Positions 12,588 to 48,753 of a stretch of 48,753 nt of DNA are shown in pieces. The stretch is from contig JAFVQU010000015.1 in the NCBI GenBank assembly GCA_017504625.1, forward strand, positions 1 to 48,753, read 5' to 3'. Position 1 is the first letter of the stretch. Each line of letters opens with the position of its first letter. The notes under the pieces were generated by a model. It was given only the letters and a program-made list of their open reading frames with translations. It had not been told where the DNA came from and ran no database searches. The position numbers and the translations under genes are program-made. This DNA comes from Clostridia bacterium (GTDB taxonomy: Bacteria; Bacillota; Clostridia; Oscillospirales; CAG-272).

Positions 12588-12678
12588 CATTGACTCTATG
12601 TGGTCAACACCATTGATTACATTCTTCAATAAATTTATCAAAAATTCAATGCCGCGAGACGGCAGAACGGAGACCAAT

Positions 12679-20100: not shown

Positions 20101-21019
20101 ATCAAAAATCAGAATAGACCCCGGTAGCGGTAGCGTTTCCACCAGCTTCACAATCGAGCTGATCGAATTTATGAATTATCCTGAGATAGATCCTGATATC
20201 ACACGTATAGTCATCAATCATAACGATTACTCTTTGCGCTTTAACCCCATCGAAACCGAAAACGGTGATTATGAGATAGTCGGAGAAGCAAGAAGAGGTT
20301 TCTATTCCATGATGATGCTCTATCACGAGTGGAATCGCTTTGACGAAACACTTACAATCAAGACGCGCGATGAAGACACGATCGTATTCACAGTTGGCAG
20401 CGATATGATAACAGTCAACGGTGTTGAACAGTCGCTCGGATACATATTCTCTCTTCGTGACGGATTGCCCATATTCAGAATAAAGGGGCTTTGCGAGCTT
20501 CTCGGATATAAGTATACGGTTGAGGACAACAGAATTCTTATTCAGTCTTGCACCGATATCGAATATGAAATGCTTGGCAAGCGAGTTGAAGGACTGTGGG
20601 ATTTTGATTTTGCAGGATTTACAGACGGTTGGAAATCACAAAATGCGTCAATGACCGTTGACGGAAGCGGCGTTCTCGTCTTGACTCCGACAAATTCTGA
20701 CCCCGCAATCTACAAAGAAGTAAAGTTTAACGCTAACAAATACAGCCAGCTTATCATAGGTGTTAAATATTTCGACGGACTTGAAAAATTCAATCCTCAT
20801 TTCTACTTCCTTACGACAAGTAGCAGCACTTGGAATGAGGCAAAGCACGTATCCGCCACTTATGAAATTCCCAACAACGTAAAGGTTGGAGATACGGTAT
20901 ACGCGACATTTATCCTTCCCTCGTGCGCAAGCTGGACGGGAGATATAACTCATATCAGAATCGACGCGATATCGGGTACTCAGGTACACGAGATCGATTC
21001 TGTACAGCTTTTAAAATAA
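17105..21019 (+). CDS. Dockerin-containing lipoprotein with GH99/WbsX-like domain, paralog of the preceding gene
   Basis: A 1304-residue lipoprotein: signal MKKLLCLFIAILCALPLVA, lipidated Cys20. Residues 66-130 form a type I dockerin with two calcium loops: GDVNKDGSVTSVD and GDANRDEEITSAD. This replaces the Pro-Thr-Glu linker of the paralog. Two beta-sandwich regions, the GH99/WbsX-like domain (about 500-861; STWNEYSEGTYIFP), a further sandwich and a stalk-like segment follow in the same order, then one C-terminal module instead of two. Dockerins bind cohesins in cellulosome-type assemblies. Having a lipid anchor as well would tie a cohesin protein to the membrane. No cohesin gene is in this window. 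Confidence 0.8.
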   Translation: MKKLLCLFIAILCALPLVACGMRSVTNTVSNEYVTKLRSYDSAKGKFELLSNDTKPSQTETDTDMYQLGDVNKDGSVTSVDLLILFKYIYNSNLYPIEDERLGDANRDEEITSADVLKIFKNIYRPDLYPLDFTILNNNSHGEAYYIFEVFSFYGTPNGWKVDNRFDLYNTTGANILTISDKSDEEFYSLSREFDAEKDGILRLELILSFASSNGGTYLSFDNPNGESEIAITEKNGYLTFVSKIDEIITDISIPSNIDYPSQYAIVLDIDLDKNTAQAVVNNESVGQIDISSSAVLSKFACGTKKTGTGAISLYHADLSKNYLLSERFLVAGSAAQRTPALWNFNGDFQLASTAGERGYDNYSVKAESTAGSYSSATRQIDPISGKISFETFVLLPEKTDGASVSLTSGDSEILKFETVDGKIVMGDTVLHDYTPNVWQTLHIDANTDTGIAEIYINGKYRADIPFSADYFDGVKVEFAPEENAVMWFDDVLIHNLFDYADYPSYPQVASSDDYNVGVNVCWLWRDQNSGEGWQATSAFSELDTYLGFYDEGLRETADWELKIMAEHGIDFLHACWYGPNSDQTEPIKKMTVSYSALHEGYMYAKYSNLVDFCIMWENSSVNVTSFENFKEYIWKYWKEYYFSDPRYARLDNKAVLTVWNLSNMVNALGGTENFNAAVEFMNQDLKELGYDGLILLLATQGIESTGNYSNYNSKGITGTYAYHYGANGRFADHQINCNRTNYENSLGISHHIPTISTGFNDIARNDSRDPLITAEDHLRVCEDVKDILAQYNTGTWRDNTVMISTWNEYSEGTYIFPCEQNGYSYLENIRTAFTNDTSDHSEVDVKPTQYQIDRVTHMFPDGYSNIRWYQFEESDEQKRLNDVNGYVAVSSSASNVGNWSTSHGLSKFSTSDGTIKGVSSSTDFGIKTTLSTELIAADAPILHIRMESSKTGDLEIFFAAAGQNFAAERRIVTGINTVNQMVDYYIRMDNHSEWKDVISKIRIDPGSGSVSTSFTIELIEFMNYPEIDPDITRIVINHNDYSLRFNPIETENGDYEIVGEARRGFYSMMMLYHEWNRFDETLTIKTRDEDTIVFTVGSDMITVNGVEQSLGYIFSLRDGLPIFRIKGLCELLGYKYTVEDNRILIQSCTDIEYEMLGKRVEGLWDFDFAGFTDGWKSQNASMTVDGSGVLVLTPTNSDPAIYKEVKFNANKYSQLIIGVKYFDGLEKFNPHFYFLTTSSSTWNEAKHVSATYEIPNNVKVGDTVYATFILPSCASWTGDITHIRIDAISGTQVHEIDSVQLLK

Positions 21020-36905: not shown

Positions 36906-36981
36906 CTGGGTGTGGCGCAGCTGGTAGCGCGCTACCTTGGGGTGGTAGAGGCCGCAAGTTCAAGTCTTGTCACTCAGACCA
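36906..36981 (+). tRNA. tRNA-Pro (anticodon GGG)
   Basis: A 76-nt cloverleaf with encoded CCA. Acceptor CTGGGTG/CACTCAG, D-arm GCGC/GCGC, anticodon arm CTACC-TTGGGGT-GGTAG (GGG), T-arm GCAAG-TTCAAGT-CTTGT. Its 3' half is the left attachment site of the element at 36936-41529, which restores the gene exactly. Confidence 0.95.
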
Positions 36982-36985
36982 AAAT
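36936..36985 (+). repeat. attL: 50-bp attachment repeat inside tRNA-Pro
   Basis: Identical over 50 bp to 41480-41529. It spans the anticodon loop through the CCA end plus four bases. Confidence 0.92.
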
Positions 36986-36997
36986 TTTAGAACGCCG

Positions 36998-37032
36998 AGA
37001 GCGTCAATCGAGAAAATCCCGATTGACGCTCT
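36998..37032. terminator. Hairpin between tRNA-Pro and the integrase
   Basis: A perfect 13-bp stem AGAGCGTCAATCG/CGATTGACGCTCT with a 9-nt loop, 9 nt past the integrase stop codon. A short T-run follows on the plus strand only. Confidence 0.6.
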
Positions 37033-37040
37033 TTGCCTTC

Positions 37041-37973
37041 TTATAGGACAAACGTCCCTTCGAGACGTTTTGCAAGGAGCACGTTGCGCTCCCTACTGTA
37101 ATGGAGGTAAATGTTGGACGTTGTTTCGATGTCAGAGTGCCCGAGCCAGCTCTTCACGTCCTCCAGCTCCCACCCCATATCAAAGAGAATACTCGCCGTG
37201 CTGTGCCTTAAATCGTGGAAGCGCATTTGCGGTAAGCTGTGAGCTTTCAGATTCCTCTGAAAGCCCCTTGTGACGTAGTCGGGTCTGAAAACCCGCCCAT
37301 CGTCCCAAGAATTGATATAAGGGGTAGTCAAGGGTCTACGTTCAATCTCGGTCAGAAGCAAGGCTCTGACTTCGGGAATGAGCTCAAACGCTCGCGCGCT
37401 CGATTCCGTCTTTGTAGTGTCTGACGCCTCGATAGTCAAATTCTTGACTATCGTGTGCTCTATGCGGATAACGTTACGGTTGAAATCGACCGCCGACCAT
37501 TTGAGCCCGAGAACTTCGGAACGTCGCAAGCCGTAGTAAAGCGCAAGAACGACCGCCACTCGCAGAGGGTGACCCTCGAAGGCGTTTATTACTTCCTGCG
37601 CCTCTTGCGCCGTCAGTAATACCGTACGGTCTGTCAATCCGCTTTTGAGCTTTGGAAGACGTACAGGGTCACAAGGATTTTGCGGGATATATCCGTATAT
37701 CACCGCAAGGTCGAGAGCTTGGCGAAGGACGCTCAAATGCTTCTTGACCGAAACGAGCGAGAGACCGCCGTCCTTGCCGTCTTTCCGTCCGCCTTTCAAC
37801 TTATCCGTAACGTACCGTTGTACGTCTATCGGCTTTAGTTCGTTAAGCTCGTAGGGTCTGAAATATGGCTCGAGGTGCTTTTGAAAATATATCGTGTACG
37901 CCTCATAGGTGGAGCGCTTCAAGCTCGGCGCTTGAATTTCAAGCCATAGGGTAAAGAAGTCTGTGCAAGTCAT
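37041..37973 (-). CDS. int: Tyrosine site-specific integrase
   Basis: A 310-residue phage-type recombinase that would integrate and excise the element at tRNA-Pro. An N-terminal SAM-like core-binding domain (about residues 5-100) precedes the catalytic domain with R in YYGLRRSEVLGLKW, HDLRHSTASILF (H-x-x-R), GHSDIETT and the nucleophile tyrosine in SNIYLHYS. ATG 37973 overlaps the Rep stop (ATGA) and has GGAG seven bases upstream; the earlier ATG at 37985 overlaps that site. Position next to attL is typical. Confidence 0.95.
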   Translation of the reverse strand: MTCTDFFTLWLEIQAPSLKRSTYEAYTIYFQKHLEPYFRPYELNELKPIDVQRYVTDKLKGGRKDGKDGGLSLVSVKKHLSVLRQALDLAVIYGYIPQNPCDPVRLPKLKSGLTDRTVLLTAQEAQEVINAFEGHPLRVAVVLALYYGLRRSEVLGLKWSAVDFNRNVIRIEHTIVKNLTIEASDTTKTESSARAFELIPEVRALLLTEIERRPLTTPYINSWDDGRVFRPDYVTRGFQRNLKAHSLPQMRFHDLRHSTASILFDMGWELEDVKSWLGHSDIETTSNIYLHYSRERNVLLAKRLEGTFVL

Positions 37974-38839
37974 ATAAAACTCCATTCGTCATATACAAGC
38001 CCACTCGATAACTCTACGTGGTTTGTATATGCCGCCGTCGCCCTTTCCTCTGCAGAGAGGAACTCGTCGGGCGACTCGCCATATACGTAGACGGGACGCT
38101 TTAGCGCTCCGCCTATAAGGCAGTACCTACCGCCTATCTTCTGACCTGATTGTTTGCCCATGTACTTGAAGATATACTTCGATACTGCGGTACGCTCATC
38201 ATCTCCGCTGTTCAGCTTGGTAATCGGCTCTACTGACGTAAAGCCTTTAGTCCAGTCGGTGATGTTATAGAGTGGCTTGCCGTTGTGGGTTAGGGGTCTG
38301 TTATTATAGGGGCTGATGGCTCTGGACAGTTTCAGCGCAGAACTGTTCATTATACCGTGGAAGTGTATGTCTCCCTTCTTGGTACGTTCGGGGACACATA
38401 CGTATTTTAAGCCGTTCCTCTGAACTCTGTTTCGGAGCCAGATGCCGAGATACTTGTAGCATTCCTCATAGGAGGACTTGTCCTCGACTTTTTCGGGGCT
38501 GTAGGTGAACGTTGCGAACATATCAAGGTCTTTATTGCACATTATCATATCAAGGGCGTTCTTCCTCGCTCTGCGCGTTGCTCGCCCAAGATTCTCTAAC
38601 GTGCCATTTTGATTTTCGTTAAGCTCTTTTTCTTCTTCTGCCGATATTATCTCTGAAGACGAATTTTGAGTGAACTCCGTTTCCGTGTCTTCCCAGCCAG
38701 CTTCTCTGAAGCGCGGCTGATTAAAATTCTGGATACAAGCGAGCTTTAGAGACCCTTCGGGGTCTATGTAGTACTTGGCTCTGACTGGATGAGTAATGAC
38801 CTCATTTGAGGCGCGAAAGGGAGTGCGGAAAACTGGCAT
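37970..38839 (-). CDS. rep: HUH-type rolling-circle replication initiator (Rep)
   Basis: A 289-residue protein with the three HUH-endonuclease motifs in order: MFATFTYSPE (motif I), KGDIHFHGIMN (motif II, H-x-H) and SKYIFKYMGKQ (motif III, catalytic tyrosine with lysine). Such proteins nick a double-strand origin and stay linked to the 5' end. Spacing and the KYM-K motif recall Microviridae VP4 and Reps of small Firmicutes phages or elements. No helicase domain is present. A TATAAT lies 8 nt before the ATG, so the true promoter or start may differ slightly. Confidence 0.85.
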   Translation of the reverse strand: MPVFRTPFRASNEVITHPVRAKYYIDPEGSLKLACIQNFNQPRFREAGWEDTETEFTQNSSSEIISAEEEKELNENQNGTLENLGRATRRARKNALDMIMCNKDLDMFATFTYSPEKVEDKSSYEECYKYLGIWLRNRVQRNGLKYVCVPERTKKGDIHFHGIMNSSALKLSRAISPYNNRPLTHNGKPLYNITDWTKGFTSVEPITKLNSGDDERTAVSKYIFKYMGKQSGQKIGGRYCLIGGALKRPVYVYGESPDEFLSAEERATAAYTNHVELSSGLVYDEWSFI

Positions 38840-38898
38840 TTGAGATTATACTGTCCTATAAATCTAGTATAAGATGTAGGAAACTTTTTGCCAAATTC

Positions 38899-39036
38899 TC
38901 AATTCTCGTCAATTCGGCGTCGTTGCCGACGGGCGCACGTGCGCTCCTTTTCGGCAACTTCCCGCCCGAATTTTTGGAGAATCGAGGGCGCGGACACGTT
39001 CGGCAGCACGTGTCTGATGTGTCGTGTATTTTTCAT
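38899..39036 (-). CDS. 45-residue basic protein of unknown function
   Basis: A short frame with a good AGGAG eight bases before its ATG. That site overlaps the stop codon of the sigma-like gene, so translation would be coupled. The protein is very rich in Arg (…CARRQRRRIDEN) and could bind nucleic acid. No family is recognised. It lies between the sigma-like gene and rep. An inverted GGGCGCACGTGCGC sequence inside it may be a DNA site as well. Confidence 0.5.
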   Translation of the reverse strand: MKNTRHIRHVLPNVSAPSILQKFGREVAEKERTCARRQRRRIDEN

Positions 39037-39047
39037 TTTGGTTGCTC

Positions 39048-39866
39048 CTAACTTGTGTTGAGCTTGTTAGCTCTCCACTTTCGAATATAATCAGCTTTAT
39101 AAGCTTTTATCTCTTCTGCGCGTTTCTGTAAATAAGAGTAGTCTGAAGGAATGACTCCAACGTACTCTCTGACATTGTAGCCAAAATCAGAGAGCCGTTT
39201 GATCACTCCATCATAATTAAGAATAAGACGGTATCTTATATCAGTATAACGACGATTTAAACTTTTAGAATTCATTCCGAGACGTTCTGCGGCTTTTTCA
39301 TATGGAATCTTACAAAGCCAAAGAGGAAAAATTCTCAATAATGAAGGAGTTAAAAACGGGGAAACTGCCTCCGTCAATTTCTCTACGTTGTTTAGCAGAG
39401 AAAAACGAGTCTCCTCGTCGATCTCTTCTTGGGGAGATGGTGCAGAATTATATAAGTCTAGTTTATGAGTTATATGTCCCTTTTCATTGACAATATATGG
39501 GCTCTCGCATCTAAAGCCAAACTTGAGGGAGTTGTAAACTGCAGGGCTGAGCTTAACAGCTATGTCAGAAGAACTGTGATAACTATGCACTGACGCTCTT
39601 CTTATCGTGCTCTCAAGAGCATACCAAGAGGAAAACTTTGTATTTCGAAGGTCAATATACGTTGCGTTGATAGCATCTTCTGGAGTTGGAAGCAGATCGC
39701 AACCGCTTCTATGAAGCTCTTTTGTACATCGTTTTTTGATATATTCGTAGTTACGTAAAAAAAACAAGTCGAACTCTTCAACATCTCCGTTGTTGATTCG
39801 CTCGGCTTGTTCGTCGGTAATGTTGAATTTTCCCCACTTTTCGCGGGTGTCTTGCTGTTCTGTCAT
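39048..39866 (-). CDS. Sigma-70-like regulatory protein
   Basis: A 272-residue protein with sigma-like ends. The N-terminal part, GDVEEFDLFFLRNYEYIKKR and PEDAINATYIDL, has the pattern of region 2. The C-terminal part, IPYEKAAERLGMNSKSLNRRYTDIRYRL, looks like a region 4 helix-turn-helix. The middle is long and unusual, and a basic tail follows (RKWRANKL). A sigma or sigma-like activator on such a small element could drive its own genes. An HTH replication or segregation factor is the alternative. It overlaps the preceding gene by 4 bp. Confidence 0.55.
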   Translation of the reverse strand: MTEQQDTREKWGKFNITDEQAERINNGDVEEFDLFFLRNYEYIKKRCTKELHRSGCDLLPTPEDAINATYIDLRNTKFSSWYALESTIRRASVHSYHSSSDIAVKLSPAVYNSLKFGFRCESPYIVNEKGHITHKLDLYNSAPSPQEEIDEETRFSLLNNVEKLTEAVSPFLTPSLLRIFPLWLCKIPYEKAAERLGMNSKSLNRRYTDIRYRLILNYDGVIKRLSDFGYNVREYVGVIPSDYSYLQKRAEEIKAYKADYIRKWRANKLNTS

Positions 39867-40288
39867 CTGAATACCGTTATATTCAGCTTTTTAGCTTCGG
39901 GGTGTGTCATAAGGTGCTTTACGTTCTCGAGCGCGTCCTTCGTCAGCTTGACTTCGGGCGCACTTGTCGCGACCTTGATATCTTCTATTTTGAAGAATAC
40001 TTCAAGAAGTATTCCGTATATATCAAGTCTCACGTCTTCTACTCCTTCAACACCGTTCTCCAGGACGTTGAAAATACTGTCGAACAGCTCCGCCGCTTCA
40101 GCGTAAATTATACCGTTGTACTTCTGACAGAGCTCGGTAAGCTTCTCGCATACCTCGTCTATCGTGATTACGGGATTGATATCGAGGTCGCCGAGCGTCG
40201 CCTCGATAGTCTTCTGAACGTCGGTCAGCTCCCTATGGAGCTTCCCTTCCTTTTTGCTTACTAATCTGTTAAATTCTACTATTCTCAT
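39863..40288 (-). CDS. Unknown 141-residue helical protein
   Basis: I do not recognise the family. The sequence alternates helices with many Glu/Asp/Val/Leu: TDVQKTIEATLGDLDINP, then a central EEL-type amphipathic stretch and a Lys-rich end. No signal peptide, membrane segment or cysteine pair. AAGGAA precedes the ATG, and its stop overlaps the sigma-like gene (ATGA). A tight pair with the sigma-like protein suggests a partner or anti-factor, which is a guess. Confidence 0.6.
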   Translation of the reverse strand: MRIVEFNRLVSKKEGKLHRELTDVQKTIEATLGDLDINPVITIDEVCEKLTELCQKYNGIIYAEAAELFDSIFNVLENGVEGVEDVRLDIYGILLEVFFKIEDIKVATSAPEVKLTKDALENVKHLMTHPEAKKLNITVFR

Positions 40289-40302
40289 AAAAATTCCTTA
40301 AT

Positions 40303-40443
40303 TTAATAAATTACGTTAAATATTTCCTTACATTTGGGGCATTTGATTTCAAGTGTTACGTTTTGCTTTTCCTTGCTTATTTTGCAAATAAGCTTGTTAC
40401 ATTTTGGACATCTGACGTCCACTTTTTCGAGTTTGTTCTGCAT
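40303..40443 (-). CDS. 46-residue Com-like zinc-ribbon protein
   Basis: A short gene with two CPKC knuckles: VRCPKCNKLICKI and EIKCPKCKEIFNV. Spacing and the phrase 'CNKLI…IEIKCPKC' recall the phage Mu Com family, small zinc-ribbon translational activators often found in phages. The start at 40443 has no strong ribosome site. It is the first left-going gene after the hairpin-rich region. Confidence 0.65.
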   Translation of the reverse strand: MQNKLEKVDVRCPKCNKLICKISKEKQNVTLEIKCPKCKEIFNVIY

Positions 40444-40874
40444 AGATTCTAAAGCGTTTCTCGACGTGAGCTGGCTAGACTAACGCCGAGAAACCATTAA
40501 GCCAAGTTGTACTCCTTTCTTTCTGTTGTAGCACGTGCGGTACTACGTGCCCATAAATACTCTGTAAGTGTGTTTCTATATAATCGGCGGGAATAGCGGA
40601 AACCGCCGCTTATACCGTTGTTTCACTTGCCCCCGCGGGCACGGTCTTCGTCCGTACCCTTGGGACATCATAAAGGAGCGCCCGCGAAGAAAACGAAGTC
40701 AAGCGCCGTTTTCTTCAGCAGAAAGGAATCCACCTTGGCAAGTGGTGAACCCAACCGTACGGTTTGGTTCTCTTAAATTATACTACCGTTCGGTAGGATT
40801 TGCAATAGAAATTTGCGAATTTCTGTAATTTTGTGAGGTTTATACAAAAAAACGAGCTCGCTGCGAGCTCGATC
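40444..40874. other. Non-coding, hairpin-rich region between divergent genes
   Basis: No convincing ORF. Dyads seen: GTTTCTCG…CGAGAAAC; GTAGCACGTGC-GGTACTACGTGC; GAACC-CAACCGTACGGTTTGGTTC; CTACCGTTCGGTAG; AGAAATTTGCGAATTTCT; GAGCTCG-CTG-CGAGCTC near 40853-40870. The region is a candidate for the Rep nick origin and for operators of the repressor at 40889. Confidence 0.5.
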
Positions 40875-40888
40875 GGGAGGTGTTTATT

Positions 40889-41128
40889 GTGCAAGTTTGC
40901 CAAAGGTTGCGAGAGATACGTAAGGCGCGAGGACTATCACAGACCGACGTTGCACGCGCTCTGGATATCCTCTATCAGCAATATGCGAGGTATGAAAAAG
41001 GCGAGCGTCAGATGCCTCTGAATTACTTCATCGCCCTTGCGGGCTTCTATGGAGTGACGTTAGATTACCTCGCTGGGCTCTCCGATGACGAGCACACCGC
41101 CGTATCTTCTACACCTTCAAGCACATGA
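40889..41128 (+). CDS. Cro/C1-type helix-turn-helix repressor
   Basis: A 79-residue DNA-binding protein: CQRLREIRKARGLSQTDVARAL and YARYEKGERQMP are the five-helix HTH of Cro/C1/XRE proteins. The GTG start at 40889 follows GGGAGG by eight bases; an in-frame GTG at 40880 overlaps that site. Transcribed opposite to the rest of the element, as lysogeny-type repressors are. Nearby dyads are likely operators. Confidence 0.85.
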   Translation: MQVCQRLREIRKARGLSQTDVARALDILYQQYARYEKGERQMPLNYFIALAGFYGVTLDYLAGLSDDEHTAVSSTPSST

Positions 41129-41479
41129 GGGAACGCGGGGGATGCGGGGGATGCGTCGCCGCCGCGAACTCGAGGGGGGCACAAACCTTTTGTGCCGCCC
41201 CTTCGGGTCAAGCGTGGTCGTGAGCTCGCGTTCGTAAAGAGGGTCATTCCCTCAACCGCCGCTAAACACGTCGGTCGAGGGACGGTCGTATTTTTTCCGG
41301 ATATCCGGAAAAAATCTCCACCGCGCAGTAGCGCCCTCTTGACGAACACACCCTCTCTCTTTGTGTCGTCCGCCGTCGTCTGACGTGTAGCACTACGTTT
41401 TTTCCGTTTGAACGGAATTATATATATCTTTTCTCGGTTGAGAAAGGCGTTTTTTTGCGTTCTGAGCGCGTTTGTCTGT
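41129..41479. other. Non-coding right end of the element, with strong palindromes
   Basis: Contains a 24-bp perfect palindrome TTTTTTCCGGATATCCGG… at 41291-41314, GGGCACAAACCTTTTGTGCCGCCC near 41176-41202 and CGTGTAGCACTACG. Candidates are the repressor gene terminator, a single-strand origin, or integrase arm sites. Antisense ORFs here look spurious. Confidence 0.5.
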
Positions 41480-41529
41480 CTTGGGGTGGTAGAGGCCGCA
41501 AGTTCAAGTCTTGTCACTCAGACCAAAAT
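41480..41529 (+). repeat. attR: 50-bp copy of the tRNA-Pro 3' half
   Basis: Exact copy of 36936-36985. The bases before it (TTTGTCTGT) do not continue the tRNA, so only the 3' half is present. Confidence 0.92.
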
Positions 41530-41556
41530 CGGAGGTTCAACCGAACCTCCGATTTT
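41525..41556 (+). terminator. Probable original terminator of tRNA-Pro
   Basis: AAAATCGGAGGTTC/GAACCTCCGATTTT with loop AACC directly follows the attR copy of the tRNA end. In the uninserted chromosome it would directly follow tRNA-Pro. Confidence 0.8.
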
Positions 41557-41606
41557 CTTTTGTTTTCTTGCAAATCCTCGCAAAATCTCGTGTTTTCGTG
41601 ATATAC

Positions 41607-41654
41607 AAAATGGGCTTGTTCTTCCCTGCTTCGAGGGTTGAACAAGCCCATTTT
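41607..41654. repeat. Inverted repeat hairpin
   Basis: AAAATGGGCTTGTTC pairs with GAACAAGCCCATTTT around an 18-nt loop that itself has a CCC/GGG pair. Two TTTGACCAC direct repeats follow at 41660-41668 and 41672-41680. Function unknown; possibly a terminator. Confidence 0.6.
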
Positions 41655-41727
41655 TCGCCTTTGACCACATGTTTGACCACTTACGGAGATTTTTGGGTCA
41701 TTTTCGCCTGATTTTTTGATAGTTTAA

Positions 41728-41760
41728 GGCGGTAATCGCAAGCTGCGATTACCACCTTTT
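41728..41760. terminator. Hairpin at the 3' border of the defence operon
   Basis: GGCGGTAATCGCA-AGC-TGCGATTACCACC followed by TTTT. It lies just past the stop codon of the last operon gene. A sister hairpin lies at 47980-48014. Confidence 0.65.
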
Positions 41761-41761
41761 A

Positions 41762-42511
41762 TTACGCCCAACTATAGTCTTTTAATTTTTGATATATGCG
41801 ACTTTTGCCTGTGTTAATTGTATCAACCAATATAAATCGTTCACCATCCAGCTTTAGAACCACCAGATGATCATCATATATGAATGACAAAAAAGTATCC
41901 TTAGCAGGCACTCGCTTATTTCTATACTTCATTGCTTCTTCAAAATCGTTAAACATAGCTCTTTTTATTTCTGCGACTGCATAATTGAAGCTATAGTCGT
42001 TTTTAAAGTATAAATCAAGCGGATAAAACATCAATATGTTTTTGTCGGTTTCCAATGTTTGCAAAAAAGAAATAACATCATATTCCACACTGCCATATGA
42101 ATGCTTTTCTTTCCTCAAATTTTCTAATTGATCCATATTATAACTTCTTAGTGCTATGTGCAATCGAGTCACCTTCATAGAAGCATTTTCTTTCCTTGGT
42201 AGAGATGAGCCATACATGCCCTGCGTATATACAGTAACCTGATGAGATAATTCTCTCCTTGCTTGCATTCCAGTTTGTCCCAGTATCAATTTGAAATCGA
42301 GTCCATACTCGCCTGCGTAACAATCGCATTCTCCCTCATCTTCTTTTGGCGGTTTTATGTATTCCTTAAAATCCACATTTTTTCTAAACCACATGGACTC
42401 ATTGACTAATTCCAATAAATACAGTTCGTAGTTACATTCTGGTTCACCCTCTACAAAATTTTTATTGATAAGCGTAGCCGGCAATATGATGCTATATAAA
42501 TTTGTATCCAT
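41762..42511 (-). CDS. Unknown protein, last gene of the defence operon
   Basis: I do not recognise this 249-residue family. The N-terminal half has a cysteine pair in GECDCYAGEYG; the C-terminal half has FLSFIYDDHLVVLKLDGERFI, a beta-hairpin pattern. No signal peptide, membrane segment or nuclease motif. The ATG at 42511 follows the HNH stop by 19 nt with AGAGAG upstream; an in-frame ATG at 42553 inside the HNH gene is possible. The context marks it as an accessory or immunity-like component of the ATPase-HNH pair. Confidence 0.6.
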   Translation of the reverse strand: MDTNLYSIILPATLINKNFVEGEPECNYELYLLELVNESMWFRKNVDFKEYIKPPKEDEGECDCYAGEYGLDFKLILGQTGMQARRELSHQVTVYTQGMYGSSLPRKENASMKVTRLHIALRSYNMDQLENLRKEKHSYGSVEYDVISFLQTLETDKNILMFYPLDLYFKNDYSFNYAVAEIKRAMFNDFEEAMKYRNKRVPAKDTFLSFIYDDHLVVLKLDGERFILVDTINTGKSRIYQKLKDYSWA

Positions 42512-42530
42512 AATACTCTCTATTTTTCTT

Positions 42531-43460
42531 TTACTCAATTTTGCATTCTTCAATTATGTCATGTGACAGTTTAGATAAAACACGCTTGTCCCAGTCAACT
42601 TCTTCTAAATAATTAAAATATACAAAGTTTTTTGCTTCAGAAATTGACGAAAAAAGTTTCGGATAGCTTTGTACTAAACTTTGAAAATATTCATCATCAT
42701 ATACATACGAAGTCCTGACAATATCCCTTACAAAATCCCCGTGCTTGTTATATAATGCAATTAGATTTAATTTCCCCGCAGTGATTAACTGCTTCTGTTT
42801 TAGCTGTAAAGAAGCACTCGAATCAGCAACTATTGTCAAACTATACTCTTCAGCAATTCCAAGCCAAGAATTAATATTATCTCCATTGGTAATCTTAAAA
42901 TTAAACCGTTCTCCATATGAATCTCTATATGGATAAATAAAGTTTTCTTCCGAAATACTACTATCATAAGTATCCAAATCATGTTTTGCAATATTACAAA
43001 TAGCGCAACATGGGATTAAATTATACATAGATAGTGCCAAATATGGATATAAAGACTTGGGAAAGAAATGATCATATTGAGGTCGAACGCCCGAATCTCT
43101 CAAAGTAAAGATATAATTTCTATTACAGTATGGACAAATCTTCACTCCAATTCTTTCTGCCCATGATTTACCAAACTTTCGCTTTGTGAAATTATCATAT
43201 AACTGACCAAATGCATTTTTTACATTGTCATCAGTAATTTGACCTATTTCTTGAATCGCAGATCTTAAACATTCTATTTCTCCCAACAACAGATTTTCTA
43301 TTTTGGTATCATCAAGTGTGCCGTTAGTAGATAAATATGTTATTATTTTGCCATAGTGCGTATCCAAAACGATCGAGCTCAAAAACGTTTTAACCCTCTT
43401 AAATGTATCTTCCTTATAGTCCTGTTTTAGCGAATCCGTAATTTTAGGGATTATAATCAT
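42531..43460 (-). CDS. HNH endonuclease, Septu PtuB-like
   Basis: A 309-residue nuclease. A zinc knuckle KICPYCNRNYIF is followed by the HNH core YDHFFPKSLYPYLALSMYNL and CCAICNIAKHD, the arrangement of nucleases paired with OLD/RecF-type ATPases as in Septu (PtuA/PtuB). It is longer than usual PtuB. The ATG overlaps the ATPase stop codon (ATGA). Likely role is DNA cutting licensed by the ATPase during phage infection, by analogy. Confidence 0.82.
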   Translation of the reverse strand: MIIIPKITDSLKQDYKEDTFKRVKTFLSSIVLDTHYGKIITYLSTNGTLDDTKIENLLLGEIECLRSAIQEIGQITDDNVKNAFGQLYDNFTKRKFGKSWAERIGVKICPYCNRNYIFTLRDSGVRPQYDHFFPKSLYPYLALSMYNLIPCCAICNIAKHDLDTYDSSISEENFIYPYRDSYGERFNFKITNGDNINSWLGIAEEYSLTIVADSSASLQLKQKQLITAGKLNLIALYNKHGDFVRDIVRTSYVYDDEYFQSLVQSYPKLFSSISEAKNFVYFNYLEEVDWDKRVLSKLSHDIIEECKIE

Positions 43461-45373
43461 CCTGCTCCCTCACTTTCCAATATCGCTATTTGCCGTTCGA
43501 TTTCGGCTTTTTGTCTTTTCAAAAAGTCAACAATTTGTTTACGCTCCGAAGCATCAACCTTTGTAATTGTTTTAGGTTCATTAATTAGTTGAGATAATTT
43601 TTTGCGTATAACCGGTTCGCCAATTATCATAATCCGCTTCTCAATATCCTCTTTATCAAATTCGTTGCTGCGAATATCATAAATAATCTTATTCACATAA
43701 ATTTGAGCATATTCTCCCATTGCCAAGCCGTTTTTGATAAAAAATGCATCTTTATATAACGTGTGAATGTTTGCCCCAAATGTCTGCGTTTTGTCTTTTT
43801 GTTGGGCAATCAATCCGTTTTCTCGCATCAAATATGTTGTATTGTCACTGGGAATATCAGATAAAACTATCGGAGAGTGGCTTGAAATGATTATTTGGAA
43901 GGTTTTATTCGGGAACTGGTTGTTAACTGCATCAATCAATTCAAAAATTATTCTTCTTTGCCATTCAGGATGAAGATATAGGTCTATTTCATCAATTAAC
44001 AACAAAACATTATCCTGCAACTTAAATTGACTTTCAGGCATAAACTTATCTATTAACGACGCAAATAAAACTCGAGACATAAAATTCATTAAGGCGCGCT
44101 CGCCGGAAGACATCTCAAGGTCATATACCTTTAAATACTTGATCAAAAAGGAGCTTCCCTTTCGAAGCATTACTTCAAAGAGCTTATGAATAGATGTAAT
44201 ATCAGTTTCGATATAAACTTTCCTTGCCAAATCATCTTCGGGCAAACCGTTGTCTTTTACATTTGCGGAATCACAGAGGTTAAAGAAAAAATCCAATTCT
44301 TCGAGAATATCTGCATAATAAGATTTAGTTACTGCATCGGGAATTGCTTCAACAAACCGTTTGCATTGTGAATAAACTTCATTGCATGGTAATGATTCAC
44401 CGGAGAGACTAAACTGATTAAATGAATATATCAATTCAAAAACCAAATTTATAAGACAAGTAGATACCACCGGCTTTTCTCTTTGCATTTTCGCTATTTC
44501 TTGATCCGCCTTGGTATATACTTCATTCAGGTATTCTTTACTGGCAAATGCTGTTTGATAATTCAATGCTTGAGCCCCATTAGGGATTAGCTTATATACG
44601 CTTGCGACTGAAAAACTAATATTTTTAATCCTCTTGCCGCAAAAGTCTTTATGTTTATTTGCAATATAGTTTTGATATATTATATCCAAAATCATTTGCG
44701 TCTGCTGTCGAGACATTTTTTTCAAATGAATAGACTGAAGAGCATTAAACTCATTATTTCTAATGAATCCCTTATCAGGCAAATGGAATAACCTTCGATA
44801 GAAAGTATCGAAAACAGATTGTATCGTATCATTAGTTAGAGTTATGTAATCGATTGCCTCAGAACGTAAATTTCTGTTTTCCGTATATTCGCTGTTAGAC
44901 AAATAAATATGGGAAATTTTACTCGTATAATTTTCATCTATAAAATCGTCACGAGTATACGGTGCTACTTCAGAGCCTTCAAAAATAACAGCAGTGTCTG
45001 TAATGTTTAAGACCTTTAAGGTATTATTGTTTTCAAGATATACTGCTATGAATTTCTTCTTCTCATTTTGTTGAATGCGATGATCATAGTATTTATCTCT
45101 TGTGGGTTCTTGAATTGGGGAACTTGAAAGCGATGTTAAATATTGTAGCAAAGTCGTTTTTCCTGTTCCATTTTCACCTATGATAGCAGATAGATTAAGC
45201 AAATTATTTGACTTAAAAACATTTATACCATCTTTTTTTATTGCTATCAACGTACGATTATCTAAGTCAAAATGGATATCATATTCCGAAGAAAAATTGA
45301 ATTCCATCGGATGAAAACACTCATGATCATCTTGATTAATCCAAATAAACAACAATTCTGTTTTCATATTCAT
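43457..45373 (-). CDS. OLD/RecF-like AAA ATPase, Septu PtuA-like
   Basis: A 638-residue ABC-type ATPase of the AAA_15/AAA_21 class. Walker A is IGENGTGKTTLL at about residue 68. The signature motif is EMSSGERALMNFMSRVL, Walker B is LLLIDEIDLYLHPEWQRR, and a conserved switch histidine is in IIISSHSPIVLSD. A long helical insert separates the halves. No Toprim domain is seen, so cutting is probably delegated to the HNH partner. It starts two bases after the stop codon of the STAND gene, so the two are coupled. Confidence 0.88.
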   Translation of the reverse strand: MNMKTELLFIWINQDDHECFHPMEFNFSSEYDIHFDLDNRTLIAIKKDGINVFKSNNLLNLSAIIGENGTGKTTLLQYLTSLSSSPIQEPTRDKYYDHRIQQNEKKKFIAVYLENNNTLKVLNITDTAVIFEGSEVAPYTRDDFIDENYTSKISHIYLSNSEYTENRNLRSEAIDYITLTNDTIQSVFDTFYRRLFHLPDKGFIRNNEFNALQSIHLKKMSRQQTQMILDIIYQNYIANKHKDFCGKRIKNISFSVASVYKLIPNGAQALNYQTAFASKEYLNEVYTKADQEIAKMQREKPVVSTCLINLVFELIYSFNQFSLSGESLPCNEVYSQCKRFVEAIPDAVTKSYYADILEELDFFFNLCDSANVKDNGLPEDDLARKVYIETDITSIHKLFEVMLRKGSSFLIKYLKVYDLEMSSGERALMNFMSRVLFASLIDKFMPESQFKLQDNVLLLIDEIDLYLHPEWQRRIIFELIDAVNNQFPNKTFQIIISSHSPIVLSDIPSDNTTYLMRENGLIAQQKDKTQTFGANIHTLYKDAFFIKNGLAMGEYAQIYVNKIIYDIRSNEFDKEDIEKRIMIIGEPVIRKKLSQLINEPKTITKVDASERKQIVDFLKRQKAEIERQIAILESEGAG

Positions 45374-45375
45374 TC

Positions 45376-47688
45376 CTACCTCTTAAAGATATAGTCGATT
45401 TCTTCATTTTCAAAATACCGATCGTATCTATATTCATCATCATAATCATCTTGCAAATAGTTCTTCACAAGATTATCCACTCCACAAACACTAATGGTTG
45501 AATCCGTCAAGAAGTCTTTATCTATAACGATATCTTTTGGTAGTCTAAAAAGCAAGTCATCCACTTCGTCGCGTACACTACCTTTGACAATATCTTCGAT
45601 ATCCTCTATAACACCATCAACATCTATATGGCCCCCATCTTCGTCCAGGTATTTTCTAGCTTCAACTATATCACCAACTTTAATCTCATAGTTATCGATA
45701 GAAGCTGTATCAAAGAAAAATGAAATAGCTTCTTTGAGCAATTTTGTCATGCTTAAAACGAATTCCGAACGAATCTCTCCAACCATTATCCAATCAACCG
45801 ACTCAATGTAAGTAACTAAATCAGGCAATTCAAACCTTTCAAGAATATTTTCCATTGATTTGAAATCTTTAACAATCTTATCGATTTTATAAAACAGACA
45901 AAAATCCTTTTCAAGGACTCTTTCTATCATTATGCTTGCCCAAACAGAGTGTTTATCAAAAACATTTACGGTCTCAAGCTTTTTCACATATGTGTTGACA
46001 AACAAAGAATAATCTTCGTCTAAGATACATTTCATTGAAACATATTCAGTTATATACGCGGCTTTTTGAAAATCATCTTCAAAATAGTAGGTTAAAATAC
46101 TTTTATCCGCAAATGCACTTGCAATTTTCGCTGCAAATGAAGCATCATCCAAAAGTTTTCTAAATTGCCCAACGCTTATACATGATGAGAGTAATTCCGC
46201 ATATTCAGGTTCATTACTTGCTAAATGAGCACGAATAAAGTCGTTTATAGAGGGATTCGCTATAGATAGCATTTTCTTGCCTTTGTCATCAAGAATTTTG
46301 ATGAATGATCCATTTAATCTCCCTAATGAAGACTCGAATTGATTAATACTCCTATCAATACCTGATAGACTCATTATTCTATGATTATAGCATTTCTTGA
46401 CAAAGTCCAATGAGATAGTAGTATTGGTAAGCGAATAGATAGTTGTTATCAATAACCTGTCACTCGGCAAAAGTCTCCTTTCATATTCATTTTTCCATAC
46501 CTCCTGTGGATTATCAAGTGCGGCTAACACAAACTTCATATAATCCCTTGTTGAAACACTTTGCAAACGTTGCTCGTTGCAAATATATTCTATAATTCGA
46601 GGATTATAGTTCGCATGTTCGATTATCTTGTGATAGTTTCCTTTGCTTTTAATCGCATTACGAAACGATTCCGGCAAATTATTGAAATATAAATGGTTAT
46701 AGAATATTTTTGCTTTTTCTACTTTCGAAAGCTTTGACATATCTAGAACAAAAACCTTATATTCCTTACTGTTAAAACTCCTCACAAGATCGGGCGTTCT
46801 CTCTTGTGCTTCACGGTAAATCGTAACCCGTGAGTTTAAAATTAGAATCTTATTAGGATTCATATGCACATGCCTTACAAGCGACAATAACTCAGTTTCT
46901 TGAGTAGACTTCATGCTAAAATATGCTTGTCCGAAACAATCATCTAACAAGATTACCTCTTTGGTATCACGAGATGCCGAAAGAGCTCTTTTCAATGATG
47001 CCAAATCGGATACATCTGTTGTGTACCGCACTCTGTATCCTTGAGCGGCATAATGCAAAACTAACATTTTTGAGGTAATTGTTTTCCCAACTCCAGGATC
47101 CCCTACGATTACCAAGACATTGTTTTTGCTTAAACTTTTAATGGCCTTATCAAAAGCTATAGTTTTTACAAACAACTTTTGTTCATCTACTATGTTGCAA
47201 AGCAACGATTCACAATCCAAAAAAATATCATTATTAAGCATATTTGTGAGTACATTAGTAGATTCAAGCCATAATTTAAAGTGCTTTCTCAGAATTTCTG
47301 CGTTTTCTTCTCTACACAAAAAGTCATCTATTTCAGTAAGTGAAATAATGTTTGCAGTAGACTCCATGTACGCCGAAAACATTGCATAAATTTGTTCTTT
47401 GACTGGAGGAGTAAGTTCCTTTGAGCAACATACATAATATTTCTTAGGCTTCAATTCATTTACCTTCTCGATTTCAGCTCTAAGGCTTCTAAGCAATCCT
47501 GAATTATCAGTTCTTATATAGTGTTTTACCTGGACTACAATATTTTTGCGATAGGAATCATCAGTAAGGTCTATACCTCCATCACATCCGGGACCAAATC
47601 TCTGCAACTTAACACCAAGCATTTGAGACAAAACATCCATACAAAGATATTCAAATTCAATATCATTTAAATTCGCATAATTAAGCAT
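45376..47688 (-). CDS. Mrr-type nuclease fused to a STAND NTPase
   Basis: A 770-residue protein. Residues about 1-130 look like an Mrr/REase domain: FEYLCMDVLSQMLG, GCDGGIDLT and VVQVKHY provide the E/D…Q-x-K core. A P-loop follows at about 195: VIVGDPGVGKTITSKM. The Walker B region EVILLDDCFGQAYF matches the 'DD-[FC]-[LF]-G' pattern of nSTAND3 domains. The remaining 400 residues are helical, with a winged-helix-like part and an acidic end, likely the sensor. Such proteins are phage sensors with nuclease output (Avs-like logic). No target can be named. Confidence 0.8.
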   Translation of the reverse strand: MLNYANLNDIEFEYLCMDVLSQMLGVKLQRFGPGCDGGIDLTDDSYRKNIVVQVKHYIRTDNSGLLRSLRAEIEKVNELKPKKYYVCCSKELTPPVKEQIYAMFSAYMESTANIISLTEIDDFLCREENAEILRKHFKLWLESTNVLTNMLNNDIFLDCESLLCNIVDEQKLFVKTIAFDKAIKSLSKNNVLVIVGDPGVGKTITSKMLVLHYAAQGYRVRYTTDVSDLASLKRALSASRDTKEVILLDDCFGQAYFSMKSTQETELLSLVRHVHMNPNKILILNSRVTIYREAQERTPDLVRSFNSKEYKVFVLDMSKLSKVEKAKIFYNHLYFNNLPESFRNAIKSKGNYHKIIEHANYNPRIIEYICNEQRLQSVSTRDYMKFVLAALDNPQEVWKNEYERRLLPSDRLLITTIYSLTNTTISLDFVKKCYNHRIMSLSGIDRSINQFESSLGRLNGSFIKILDDKGKKMLSIANPSINDFIRAHLASNEPEYAELLSSCISVGQFRKLLDDASFAAKIASAFADKSILTYYFEDDFQKAAYITEYVSMKCILDEDYSLFVNTYVKKLETVNVFDKHSVWASIMIERVLEKDFCLFYKIDKIVKDFKSMENILERFELPDLVTYIESVDWIMVGEIRSEFVLSMTKLLKEAISFFFDTASIDNYEIKVGDIVEARKYLDEDGGHIDVDGVIEDIEDIVKGSVRDEVDDLLFRLPKDIVIDKDFLTDSTISVCGVDNLVKNYLQDDYDDEYRYDRYFENEEIDYIFKR

Positions 47689-47703
47689 ATTTTAAGCTCC
47701 TTA

Positions 47704-47886
47704 TTATTCCTCAGCTTGGCCTTTATTTACCCACTCGTCAATTTCCGAAATCTTAAATTTCCAGTTCTTCCCGATTTTATGAGCAGGCATATTCTTTGTG
47801 ACGATCCACCGCAAGGCTGTATCACGGCTAATTCCGAGATATTTGCATATCTCTGGCATTGAGTAGTACCTATCTTTAATATCCAT
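47704..47886 (-). CDS. Excisionase-type helix-turn-helix protein
   Basis: A 60-residue DNA-binding protein of the HTH_17/excisionase group: YYSMPEICKYLGISRDTALRWI and the wing MPAHKIGKNWKFKISEIDEWV. AGGAG precedes the ATG. It is the first gene of the operon, 15 nt upstream of the STAND gene, with a consensus promoter. It could be the operon's regulator or a recombination directionality factor kept from a mobile element. Confidence 0.85.
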   Translation of the reverse strand: MDIKDRYYSMPEICKYLGISRDTALRWIVTKNMPAHKIGKNWKFKISEIDEWVNKGQAEE

Positions 47887-47914
47887 TTCAAAACACTCCT
47901 AGCGTTTTTCTTTT

Positions 47915-47943
47915 ATTATAGCACAACTATAGTGTTTTGTAAA
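47915..47943 (-). promoter_or_regulatory. Sigma-A promoter of the defence operon
   Basis: TTTACA (47938-47943), 17-bp spacer and TATAAT (47915-47920) on the minus strand. The spacer includes CACTATAG-TTGTG with an ACTATAGT dyad, a plausible operator. Confidence 0.8.
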
Positions 47944-47979
47944 GTATTGTCGTATATTGTATGATCATATATTGTTAGA

Positions 47980-48014
47980 GGAGGCAATCGTATTCATCAC
48001 GATTACCTCCTTTT
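47980..48014. terminator. Hairpin at the 5' border of the defence operon
   Basis: GGAGGCAATCGT-ATTCATC-ACGATTACCTCC followed by TTTTC. It is related to the hairpin at 41728-41760. Confidence 0.65.
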
Positions 48015-48045
48015 CTTTGTTTACTGCGTATCAATTTTTGAGTTG

Positions 48046-48228
48046 TTAACCGTGCCAATATTTCTTTAAGCCATACTCTTTTAATACTTTTCCTTCTTCA
48101 TCTTTTTCAATAAACCATGTTCCATCATAGAAACAGTTTTCGCATATACCAATAACCTCGAAAGTGTTATCGCCGACTGCCGTTTTACACATAACCTTGA
48201 GTTCGCCATTACATTTTGGACACTTCAT
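48046..48228 (-). CDS. Small zinc-ribbon protein
   Basis: A 60-residue protein with paired cysteines MKCPKCNGELKV and GICENCFYDGTWF, a single zinc ribbon. The rest is charged and ends KKYWHG. Purpose unknown; such proteins accompany mobile elements. The ATG is preceded by AAAGGAGAG (48232-48240). Confidence 0.65.
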   Translation of the reverse strand: MKCPKCNGELKVMCKTAVGDNTFEVIGICENCFYDGTWFIEKDEEGKVLKEYGLKKYWHG

Positions 48229-48240
48229 TTTTCTCTCCTT

Positions 48241-48624
48241 TCATACTATTCCATATTCCTCTTTCATCTCCGCTATCATCTGTGCGAGTTTTTCTTCGCA
48301 TTCTTCGATGTTGCCAGCATAGATGTTTCGGGTGATGCGTTTGCCGTTGATGATCGGCGAATACCGTCCTTCCCACACGTTTTTGCTGACCTGATGGATC
48401 GAGCCTGTTCCCTGCCGTCTGTACTTGCCTTTATAAGGCTCAAATTTCGTCCTTGGTGTGGGTTTTGGTGCTTCGGTCGGTACTTGCTCGTCCTCGCTCT
48501 CACCGCTCTCAAACTCGGCGTACGCGCCTGCAAGCGTTCCCATCGTTCTGTCAATGGTCTTGGCTGCCGTTCTCATACCTTCGTCGGTGGCGTGAGAGTA
48601 TACGTTCAGTGTAGTGAACATCAA
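48241..48624 (-). pseudogene. C-terminal remnant of a tyrosine integrase
   Basis: This 127-residue frame begins with the tail of an integrase: TTLNVYSHATDEGMRTAAK, including the catalytic-tyrosine motif NVYSHAT. An acidic Pro-rich linker follows, then a domain RQGTGSIHQVSKNVWEGRYS…NGKRITRNIYAG…CEEKLAQMI. The last resembles AP2-like/arm-binding segments of phage integrases. The main catalytic domain (R and H-x-x-R) is absent upstream of 48624, so the gene is cut there. Confidence 0.7.
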
Positions 48625-48701
48625 AAATCGTCACATCTTAGGGGTAGGCTTTGATTGGTTCTTGTCGATGAGCTTATAGCACATTTTTCAGATAATGTCA
48701 A

Positions 48702-48747
48702 GTTAACGAGGGTAAATTTGCTTATTTAATATTTTACCCTCGTTAAC
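48702..48747. repeat. 15-bp perfect inverted repeat hairpin
   Basis: GTTAACGAGGGTAAA (48702-48716) pairs with TTTACCCTCGTTAAC (48733-48747) around an A/T-rich 16-nt loop, close to the window end and next to the truncated integrase. It may be a terminator or a recombination site. 48625-48701 shows nothing else. Confidence 0.6.
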
Positions 48748-48753
48748 ATCATA

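Follow-up and report, generated by a model that had tools for sequence, protein, structure and literature searches.

Near the end of a contig from a Clostridia bacterium, five closely spaced genes join a nuclease-STAND sensor to a Septu-like ATPase-HNH pair. Do they form a single composite defense system, as an earlier note on this DNA had supposed, or a local accumulation of modules that are otherwise found apart? The stretch that we analyzed (hereafter, the window) is the entire 48,753-bp contig, which belongs to an assembly of 1.96 Mb in 30 contigs.

A compact operon of low GC content

The operon is a minus-strand run of genes for a helix-turn-helix (HTH) protein, an Mrr-STAND protein, a PtuA-like ATPase, an HNH nuclease and an orphan protein, separated by 15, 2, -4 and 19 nt, where the last value assumes that the orphan gene starts at ATG 42511; the alternative start at TTG 42553 would overlap the HNH gene. 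A purine-rich stretch lies upstream of each of the five starts. The 4-nt overlap of the ATPase and HNH genes (ATGA) and the 2-nt gap between the STAND and ATPase genes suggest translational coupling, and the five genes are presumably co-transcribed. The GC content of the operon is 33.6% (0.336) vs 46.0% (0.460) for window positions 1-41000. Thus, the earlier note had correctly placed the five coupled or closely spaced genes and recognized their AT-richness relative to the surroundings. The identities that it proposed are likewise borne out by Pfam and PADLOC profiles, and comparison with defense-system models yielded the candidates PDC-S73 (434 bits), PDC-M62A (246 bits) and PDC-M62B (213 bits), and one PADLOC match, at 15.5 bits, for the orphan.

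The top sigma-70-like site on the minus strand of positions 41400-48753, as predicted by a consensus scan, is TTTACA-17-TATAAT (47915..47943, minus strand; 11 of 12 positions, with TG before the -10 element), located just upstream of the HTH gene. Because promoter-like sites are, overall, close to chance in number (39 vs 31 +/- 5 in shuffles), this near-consensus site is a likely promoter, in line with the single promoter that the earlier note had proposed. Beyond the operon end lies a terminator-like hairpin (41731..41753, plus strand), the T-run of which is on the plus strand, so that the hairpin alone does not terminate the minus-strand operon. Elsewhere in the window, we observed two very large, similar-looking ORFs of 1434 and 1304 aa (12598-16902 and 17105-21019), the second of which carries, as judged by eye, a dockerin-like repeat near the N-terminus.

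The HTH protein and the STAND nuclease

The first gene (47704..47886, minus strand) encodes a 60-aa DNA-binding protein of the HTH_17/excisionase type (Pfam HTH_17, 3.8e-14), the presumed regulator. A single-sequence profile of this protein matched none of the 44 STAND loci described below at E up to 1e-4; when the limit was relaxed to 0.01, its sole match among 32 of these loci was a gene downstream of STAND in locus L045, at 24 bits.

The product of the second gene (45376..47688, minus strand) is a 770-aa protein that consists of an N-terminal Mrr nuclease (Mrr_cat, 3.9e-7), an nSTAND3 NTPase (3.5e-41, 140.9 bits) and a helical C-terminus, and that matches PDC-S73 over its full length (residues 3-769). 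The PD-(D/E/Q)XK residues of the nuclease (D36, D40, Q53 and K55) and, in the NTPase, Walker A (G196-K202), Walker B (D249-D250) and R287 are all present and are kept in 90% or more of a set of 28 sequences to which the window protein belongs, a count made without the five loci whose ORFs are no longer than 750 aa. In searches with the AF2 model of this protein (pLDDT 84), the top VIA row was Avs4 (8dgf), tied with AAA+ rows, and Avs5 ranked 23 and 46; these rows derive mostly from residues 151-394.

No relative of the STAND protein was recovered in single-protein scans of viral and genome contigs, a PDB sequence search with it gave no match, and it was not found in 58 close relatives of the host. 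A scan of viral contigs using alignment A2 likewise recovered no relative. In the open-access literature, coverage of which excludes preprints and most subscription journals, we found no paper naming PDC-S73; passages of PMC9122126 name Mrr_cat-STAND proteins in a phage-satellite defense hotspot. On a Priestia plasmid (L006, 8001-10338), a PDC-S73 protein is annotated and read as two ORFs, with the nuclease and NTPase parts separate.

A Septu-related ATPase-HNH pair

The third gene (43457..45373, minus strand) encodes a 638-aa PtuA-like ABC/AAA_21 ATPase (Pfam AAA_21/AAA_15; PDC-M62A) and is followed directly, across the 4-nt overlap, by the gene for a 309-aa PtuB-like HNH nuclease (42531..43460, minus strand; PDC-M62B), which scores 18.2 bits against Pfam HNH, with a cut-off of 21.4. 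The catalytic residues of both proteins are conserved in at least 90% of the sequences compared, window included: Walker A G66/K72, the signature S422-G424-E425 and Walker B D461-E462 in 9 ATPases (L036, L038 and L042-L044 left out), and C109-C112, D130-H131, N147 and C152-C155-N156 in 10 HNH proteins (L036 and L042-L044 left out). The Walker and HNH residues are named in PMC13096335, according to which both are required for defense by PtuAB and tRNA-Tyr is cut; passages of PMC11555353 describe depletion of tRNA-Tyr by a retron PtuAB and report another Septu to target DNA.

Twelve PDB sequences, most of them named PtuA or retron ATPase, match the ATPase over residues 416-535, and a PDB sequence search with the HNH protein gave no match. 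An Rfam scan of positions 40000-48753 returned nothing at E up to 0.1, and thus no known retron RNA family is seen with the PtuAB-like pair. Assignment to Septu proper was rejected on the NCBIfam scores (PtuA 71.2 vs a cut-off of 500, PtuB 24.8 vs 150 bits), and the pair was filed as PDC-M62, Septu-related.

The nearest relatives of the pair that we found are on viral contigs (L105/L106; 55% identity for the HNH protein and 48% for the ATPase, nearly full length), where they stand alone as a bare A-B two-gene cassette. By eye, the ORFs ahead of the pair in L106 were read as holin and amidase, and those that follow it in either contig as serine recombinases. Another viral contig (L117, 8337-14228) carries an M62-like ATPase-HNH pair and, on the opposite strand, a second PtuA-like ATPase and an HNH-like ORF, along with an ORF read as reverse transcriptase, possibly a retron I-A.

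The two modules occur apart in the other genomes examined

We compared 44 PDC-S73 loci, comprising 32 from genome contigs and 12 others (6 of 50 plasmid records matched, both phage records and all 4 other places in genomes of the phylum), with 26 loci of the pair (3 of 57 ATPase-matched plasmid records, all 10 other phylum genomes with M62B and all 13 viral-contig loci). In profile searches at E up to 1e-4, neither M62B nor the orphan was detected at any of the 44 PDC-S73 loci, 6 of the 32 genome-contig loci ending within 700 nt downstream; conversely, neither PDC-S73 nor the orphan was present at any of the 26 pair loci. M62A-like ATPases were found at two STAND loci, namely L007 (62 bits) and L047 (AriA-like, 27 bits). 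Locus L007 was rejected as support for a composite because the Septu there is the canonical PtuA/PtuB, divergently encoded on the opposite strand, and not PDC-M62.

The loci are not all independent: identity is 80% or higher inside each of the sets L065/L066, L067/L068, L072/L076 and the L054 group (8 loci), the listed ORFs of L105 are near-identical to those of L106, as are those of L113 to those of L114, and L011 and L068 represent a single site. Some are also divergent: L012-L014 encode longer proteins in which the match to PDC-S73 is confined to the first 490-560 positions of the latter, L036 has no M62A by HMM, M62A of L038 is in two pieces, and the pair is only distantly related in L042-L044 (M62B, 60-66 bits).

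Among 398 genomes of the phylum, PDC-S73 was identified in 4 (E up to 1e-40) and M62B in 11 (E up to 1e-15), the genome of the window counting in both. None of the remaining 397 genomes, 3 with PDC-S73 and 10 with M62B, contains both, compared to 0.08 expected by chance; with so few genomes, neither avoidance nor attraction could be revealed. The full five-gene set is known from one contig, and the combination appears to be local. The earlier note had held that a composite system would be disproved if the STAND gene and the ATPase-HNH pair were found mostly apart; at every other locus examined, apart is how they are found, and the co-occurrence of the five genes that it had asked about was not encountered.

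Diverse defense genes adjoin PDC-S73

The 32 genome-contig STAND loci fall into 22 clusters at 80% identity. From 17 of these, 29 hand-picked neighbor proteins were scanned with PADLOC (none from L046, L052, L064, L073 or L074), with an E-value limit of 1e-3 in one round and 1e-5 in two others. A defense-family match in a scanned gene within ~300 nt of STAND was obtained in 9 of the 22 clusters, a proportion for which there is no base rate for comparison. These neighbors are a TIR protein, weakly matched at 22 bits, that follows an AriA-like ATPase (L047; the STAND ORF overlaps the upstream pair, with 74 nt to its likely start), DUF4297-HerA upstream of STAND (L049; 62 nt before the ORF and 101 nt before the likely start), a GajAB-like pair 93 nt upstream (L050), a convergent Gabija (L051), SoFic and PDC-S02 (L054 group), SpbK (L055), AbiLi/AbiLii, 1 nt before the STAND ORF, and OLD (L065), PDC-S13 (L070), and PDC-S06 (L072, absent from the cluster mate L076). 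In five of the nine (L047, L049, L050, L054 group and L065/L066), the match lies on the same strand within ~100 nt of STAND. The scanned neighbors in L045, L048, L053, L062, L063, L067, L069 and L075 gave no match or a slight one; the matches to TmtA in L069 and to a retron HTH in L048 were too slight to be counted.

Synergy between co-resident defense systems is known. Two readings that give the presumed common transcript a functional meaning have to be weighed. The broader one, which we consider doubtful, is that PDC-S73 is a portable sensor plugged into unrelated ATPase-effector transcripts, Septu-like here and Gabija, AbiL, HerA-DUF4297 and ATPase-TIR elsewhere, with which it cooperates, the orphan being a second portable add-on. 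If so, PDC-S73 would cross-activate its partner systems or catch phages that block them, and the orphan would belong to a small family of D...DFK nucleases of defense operons and islands. The narrower reading, that of a true composite in which the Mrr-STAND sensor switches on the PtuA-like ATPase and HNH nuclease or has them as its backup, while the orphan adds a third effector or a brake, could draw on the one likely promoter, the 2-nt and -4-nt spacing, the common low GC content and the finding that STAND relatives follow other ATPase-effector pairs on the same strand (L065, L050, L049 and L047), but is improbable given that the combination was absent from all of the other loci examined and, within the limits of that small sample, from the other phylum genomes. 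We favor, instead, independent modules: because they are apart in the other genomes examined, their co-occurrence here is best viewed as a local pile-up of defense cargo rather than a new single machine.

An orphan family with a nuclease-like motif

The tail gene (41762..42511, minus strand, or from TTG 42553) encodes a 249-aa protein without a match in Pfam or NCBIfam, and a PDB sequence search with its profile was equally negative. The single-sequence AF2 model is unusable (pLDDT 32). No relatives were identified among viral contigs or by tblastn against plasmids and phages. Five distant relatives were found in bacterial genomes, one in 397 phylum genomes besides that of the window (G216), one in 294 genomes of the order (G548) and three in 390 genomes of the class (G853, G953 and G793), and none adjoins PDC-S73 or M62. 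The motif G60-E61-x-D63...D72-F73-K74 of the window protein recurs as G-[EQ]-x-D followed by D-F-K in five of the six sequences, namely, those that cover the region (L103 is the C-terminal half only), and it is possible that D...DFK represents a PD-(D/E)XK active site.

The family with this conserved motif occurs in two other defense islands. In L080, the orphan relative, which is interrupted by a gene read as transposase, lies 37 nt after an SNF2/DrmD-like helicase gene, in an island that also includes PglZ and BrxL genes and, ~7 kb away, a weak M62A-like ATPase (25 bits). In L102, it is flanked, across intervening ORFs, by a methyltransferase-like gene on one side and a type II-A-like retron on the other; genes for Lamassu LmuB and a PtuB-like HNH protein are nearby. 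Near the relatives in L034, L103 and L104, no defense gene was recognized, the neighbors scanned being two of L034 (Pfam). The contigs of L080 (G548:C109), which leads into the orphan-relative island, and of L097 (G548:C128) both start with nearly the same integrase 3' end, which points to an integrase present in multiple copies at which assemblies break.

These locations bear on the idea that the orphan is a dedicated third component of the M62 pair, be it a regulator, an antitoxin or an effector: its gene follows the HNH gene by 19 nt, but no M62 locus in our sample carries it and all five relatives are located elsewhere, which makes such a role quite improbable. A small uncharacterized family with a nuclease-like motif turns up in defense islands.

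The operon in a tRNA-Pro cargo slot

The island that carries the operon has a recognizable left border, a copy of the 3' half of tRNA-Pro (41480..41529, plus strand; presumed att), which is a perfect 50-bp repeat of 36936-36985. The two copies bracket a 4.5-kb element (36936-41529) with, by eye, an integrase-like ORF (37041-37985) and a replication-like ORF (37970-38839). The defense operon lies beyond the second copy, and on its far side, at the contig end, the right border is formed by the 3' part of a tyrosine-integrase-like gene (48241..48624, minus strand) that differs from the integrase of the 4.5-kb element; the piece has no Pfam match, and the label was assigned by reading. Between the operon and this piece is a 60-aa zinc-ribbon-like ORF (48046..48228, minus strand) with two matches below Pfam cut-offs. 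The contig ends within the island, and so the complete island lies partly outside the window. The ~130 bp past the integrase piece (48625-48753) contain a perfect 15-bp inverted repeat, GTTAACGAGGGTAAA / TTTACCCTCGTTAAC; the assembly may have broken here at an integrase region that is invertible or present more than once.

Both borders recur in a genome of the same genus, G007, in locus L091 (G007:C92:29001-49000). The 225 bp at 41480-41704 are 86.8% identical to L091 3776-4000, and the integrase piece shares 63% identity with the C-terminal region of an ORF of 481 aa there (89.8% at the DNA level over 48246-48411); a second short copy of the integrase end is found 18 kb off. In G007, the matching att segment and integrase end flank other cargo, three ORFs of 121, 71 and 377 aa (no PADLOC match for the 377-aa ORF), adjoined by PDC-S41 and Wadjet JetA, JetB, JetC and JetD. 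Wadjet acts on plasmids. In genome G008 (L095), an integrase piece and tRNA-Pro-like stretches flank an ORF of weak ThsA similarity. Thus, the operon occupies the cargo slot of a tRNA-Pro integrative element; a tRNA-Pro locus carries differing cargo in genomes of one genus.

Of all the alternatives, the least probable is that the nucleases mainly stabilize the integrative element or exclude plasmids and other integrants, with phage defense secondary, as the element context at the tRNA-Pro att and the neighboring Wadjet might suggest, because both modules belong to families listed by PADLOC as phage-defense candidates and PtuAB relatives stop phages, as reported in passages of PMC13096335 and PMC11555353.

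Probable independent defense modules behind one likely promoter

Observed directly are which genes the operon contains and how they are spaced, the intactness of their catalytic motifs, the surrounding mobile-element frame and the separate occurrence of the modules elsewhere. These are best explained if an integrative element at a tRNA-Pro site carries the operon as its cargo, made up of independent phage-defense modules behind one promoter, a reading to which we assign a probability of about 0.8. Against it stands the 2-nt STAND-ATPase gap, which suggests a coupling that independent modules do not need.

We infer the defense function, the regulation and each biochemical step of both modules as follows. 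The first module would be a single-gene Avs-like sensor-nuclease, in which the C-terminal helical part of the STAND protein would recognize a phage product, the nSTAND3 domain would bind NTP and oligomerize, and the Mrr domain would then cut DNA. The second would be a two-gene Septu-related pair, in which the PtuA-like ATPase would hold and license the PtuB-like HNH nuclease that, upon infection, would attack tRNA or DNA, aborting the infection. The HTH protein probably sets the expression of the unit, and the tail gene would have an accessory role, its product possibly being a small nuclease of the PD-(D/E)XK-like type. The better prospect lies in the general behavior of PDC-S73 and the orphan family: with PDC-S73 found beside many unrelated defense systems, modular or cooperative defense becomes testable.

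Comparison with known systems

The operon was rejected as a member of MADS: the HTH protein scores 63.9 bits on NCBIfam MAD1, below the cut-off of 80, the STAND protein has a weak mad8-like match (21.8 bits), and there is no other mad gene in the operon. Compared with the effector-STAND-repeat sensors of AVAST, Avs4 and Avs5, the modeled STAND protein appears to resemble Avs4. Passages of PMC12799240 report nuclease-protease pairs that are recurrently acquired beside unrelated immune systems, Hachiman, AVAST and others. The likeness lies in a module found beside unrelated systems; the genes differ. The neighborhoods of PDC-S73 are reminiscent of such recurrent acquisition but do not prove it.

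With Septu, the pair shares the order of its genes, A directly before B, and its best PADLOC matches are PDC-M62A and M62B. In PMC11811056, many calls of PDC-M62 are treated as duplicates of Septu calls. The spacing of 16 between H131 and N147 equals that of H75 and N91 in a published PtuB (PMC13096335), whereas the ATPase, at 638 aa, is longer than the matched PDB chains (456-552 aa). The closer relatives of the STAND protein have the same length and layout as the window protein, but PDC-S73 is a single gene and here it is the second of five. The locus is a new arrangement of known kinds of module rather than a new system.
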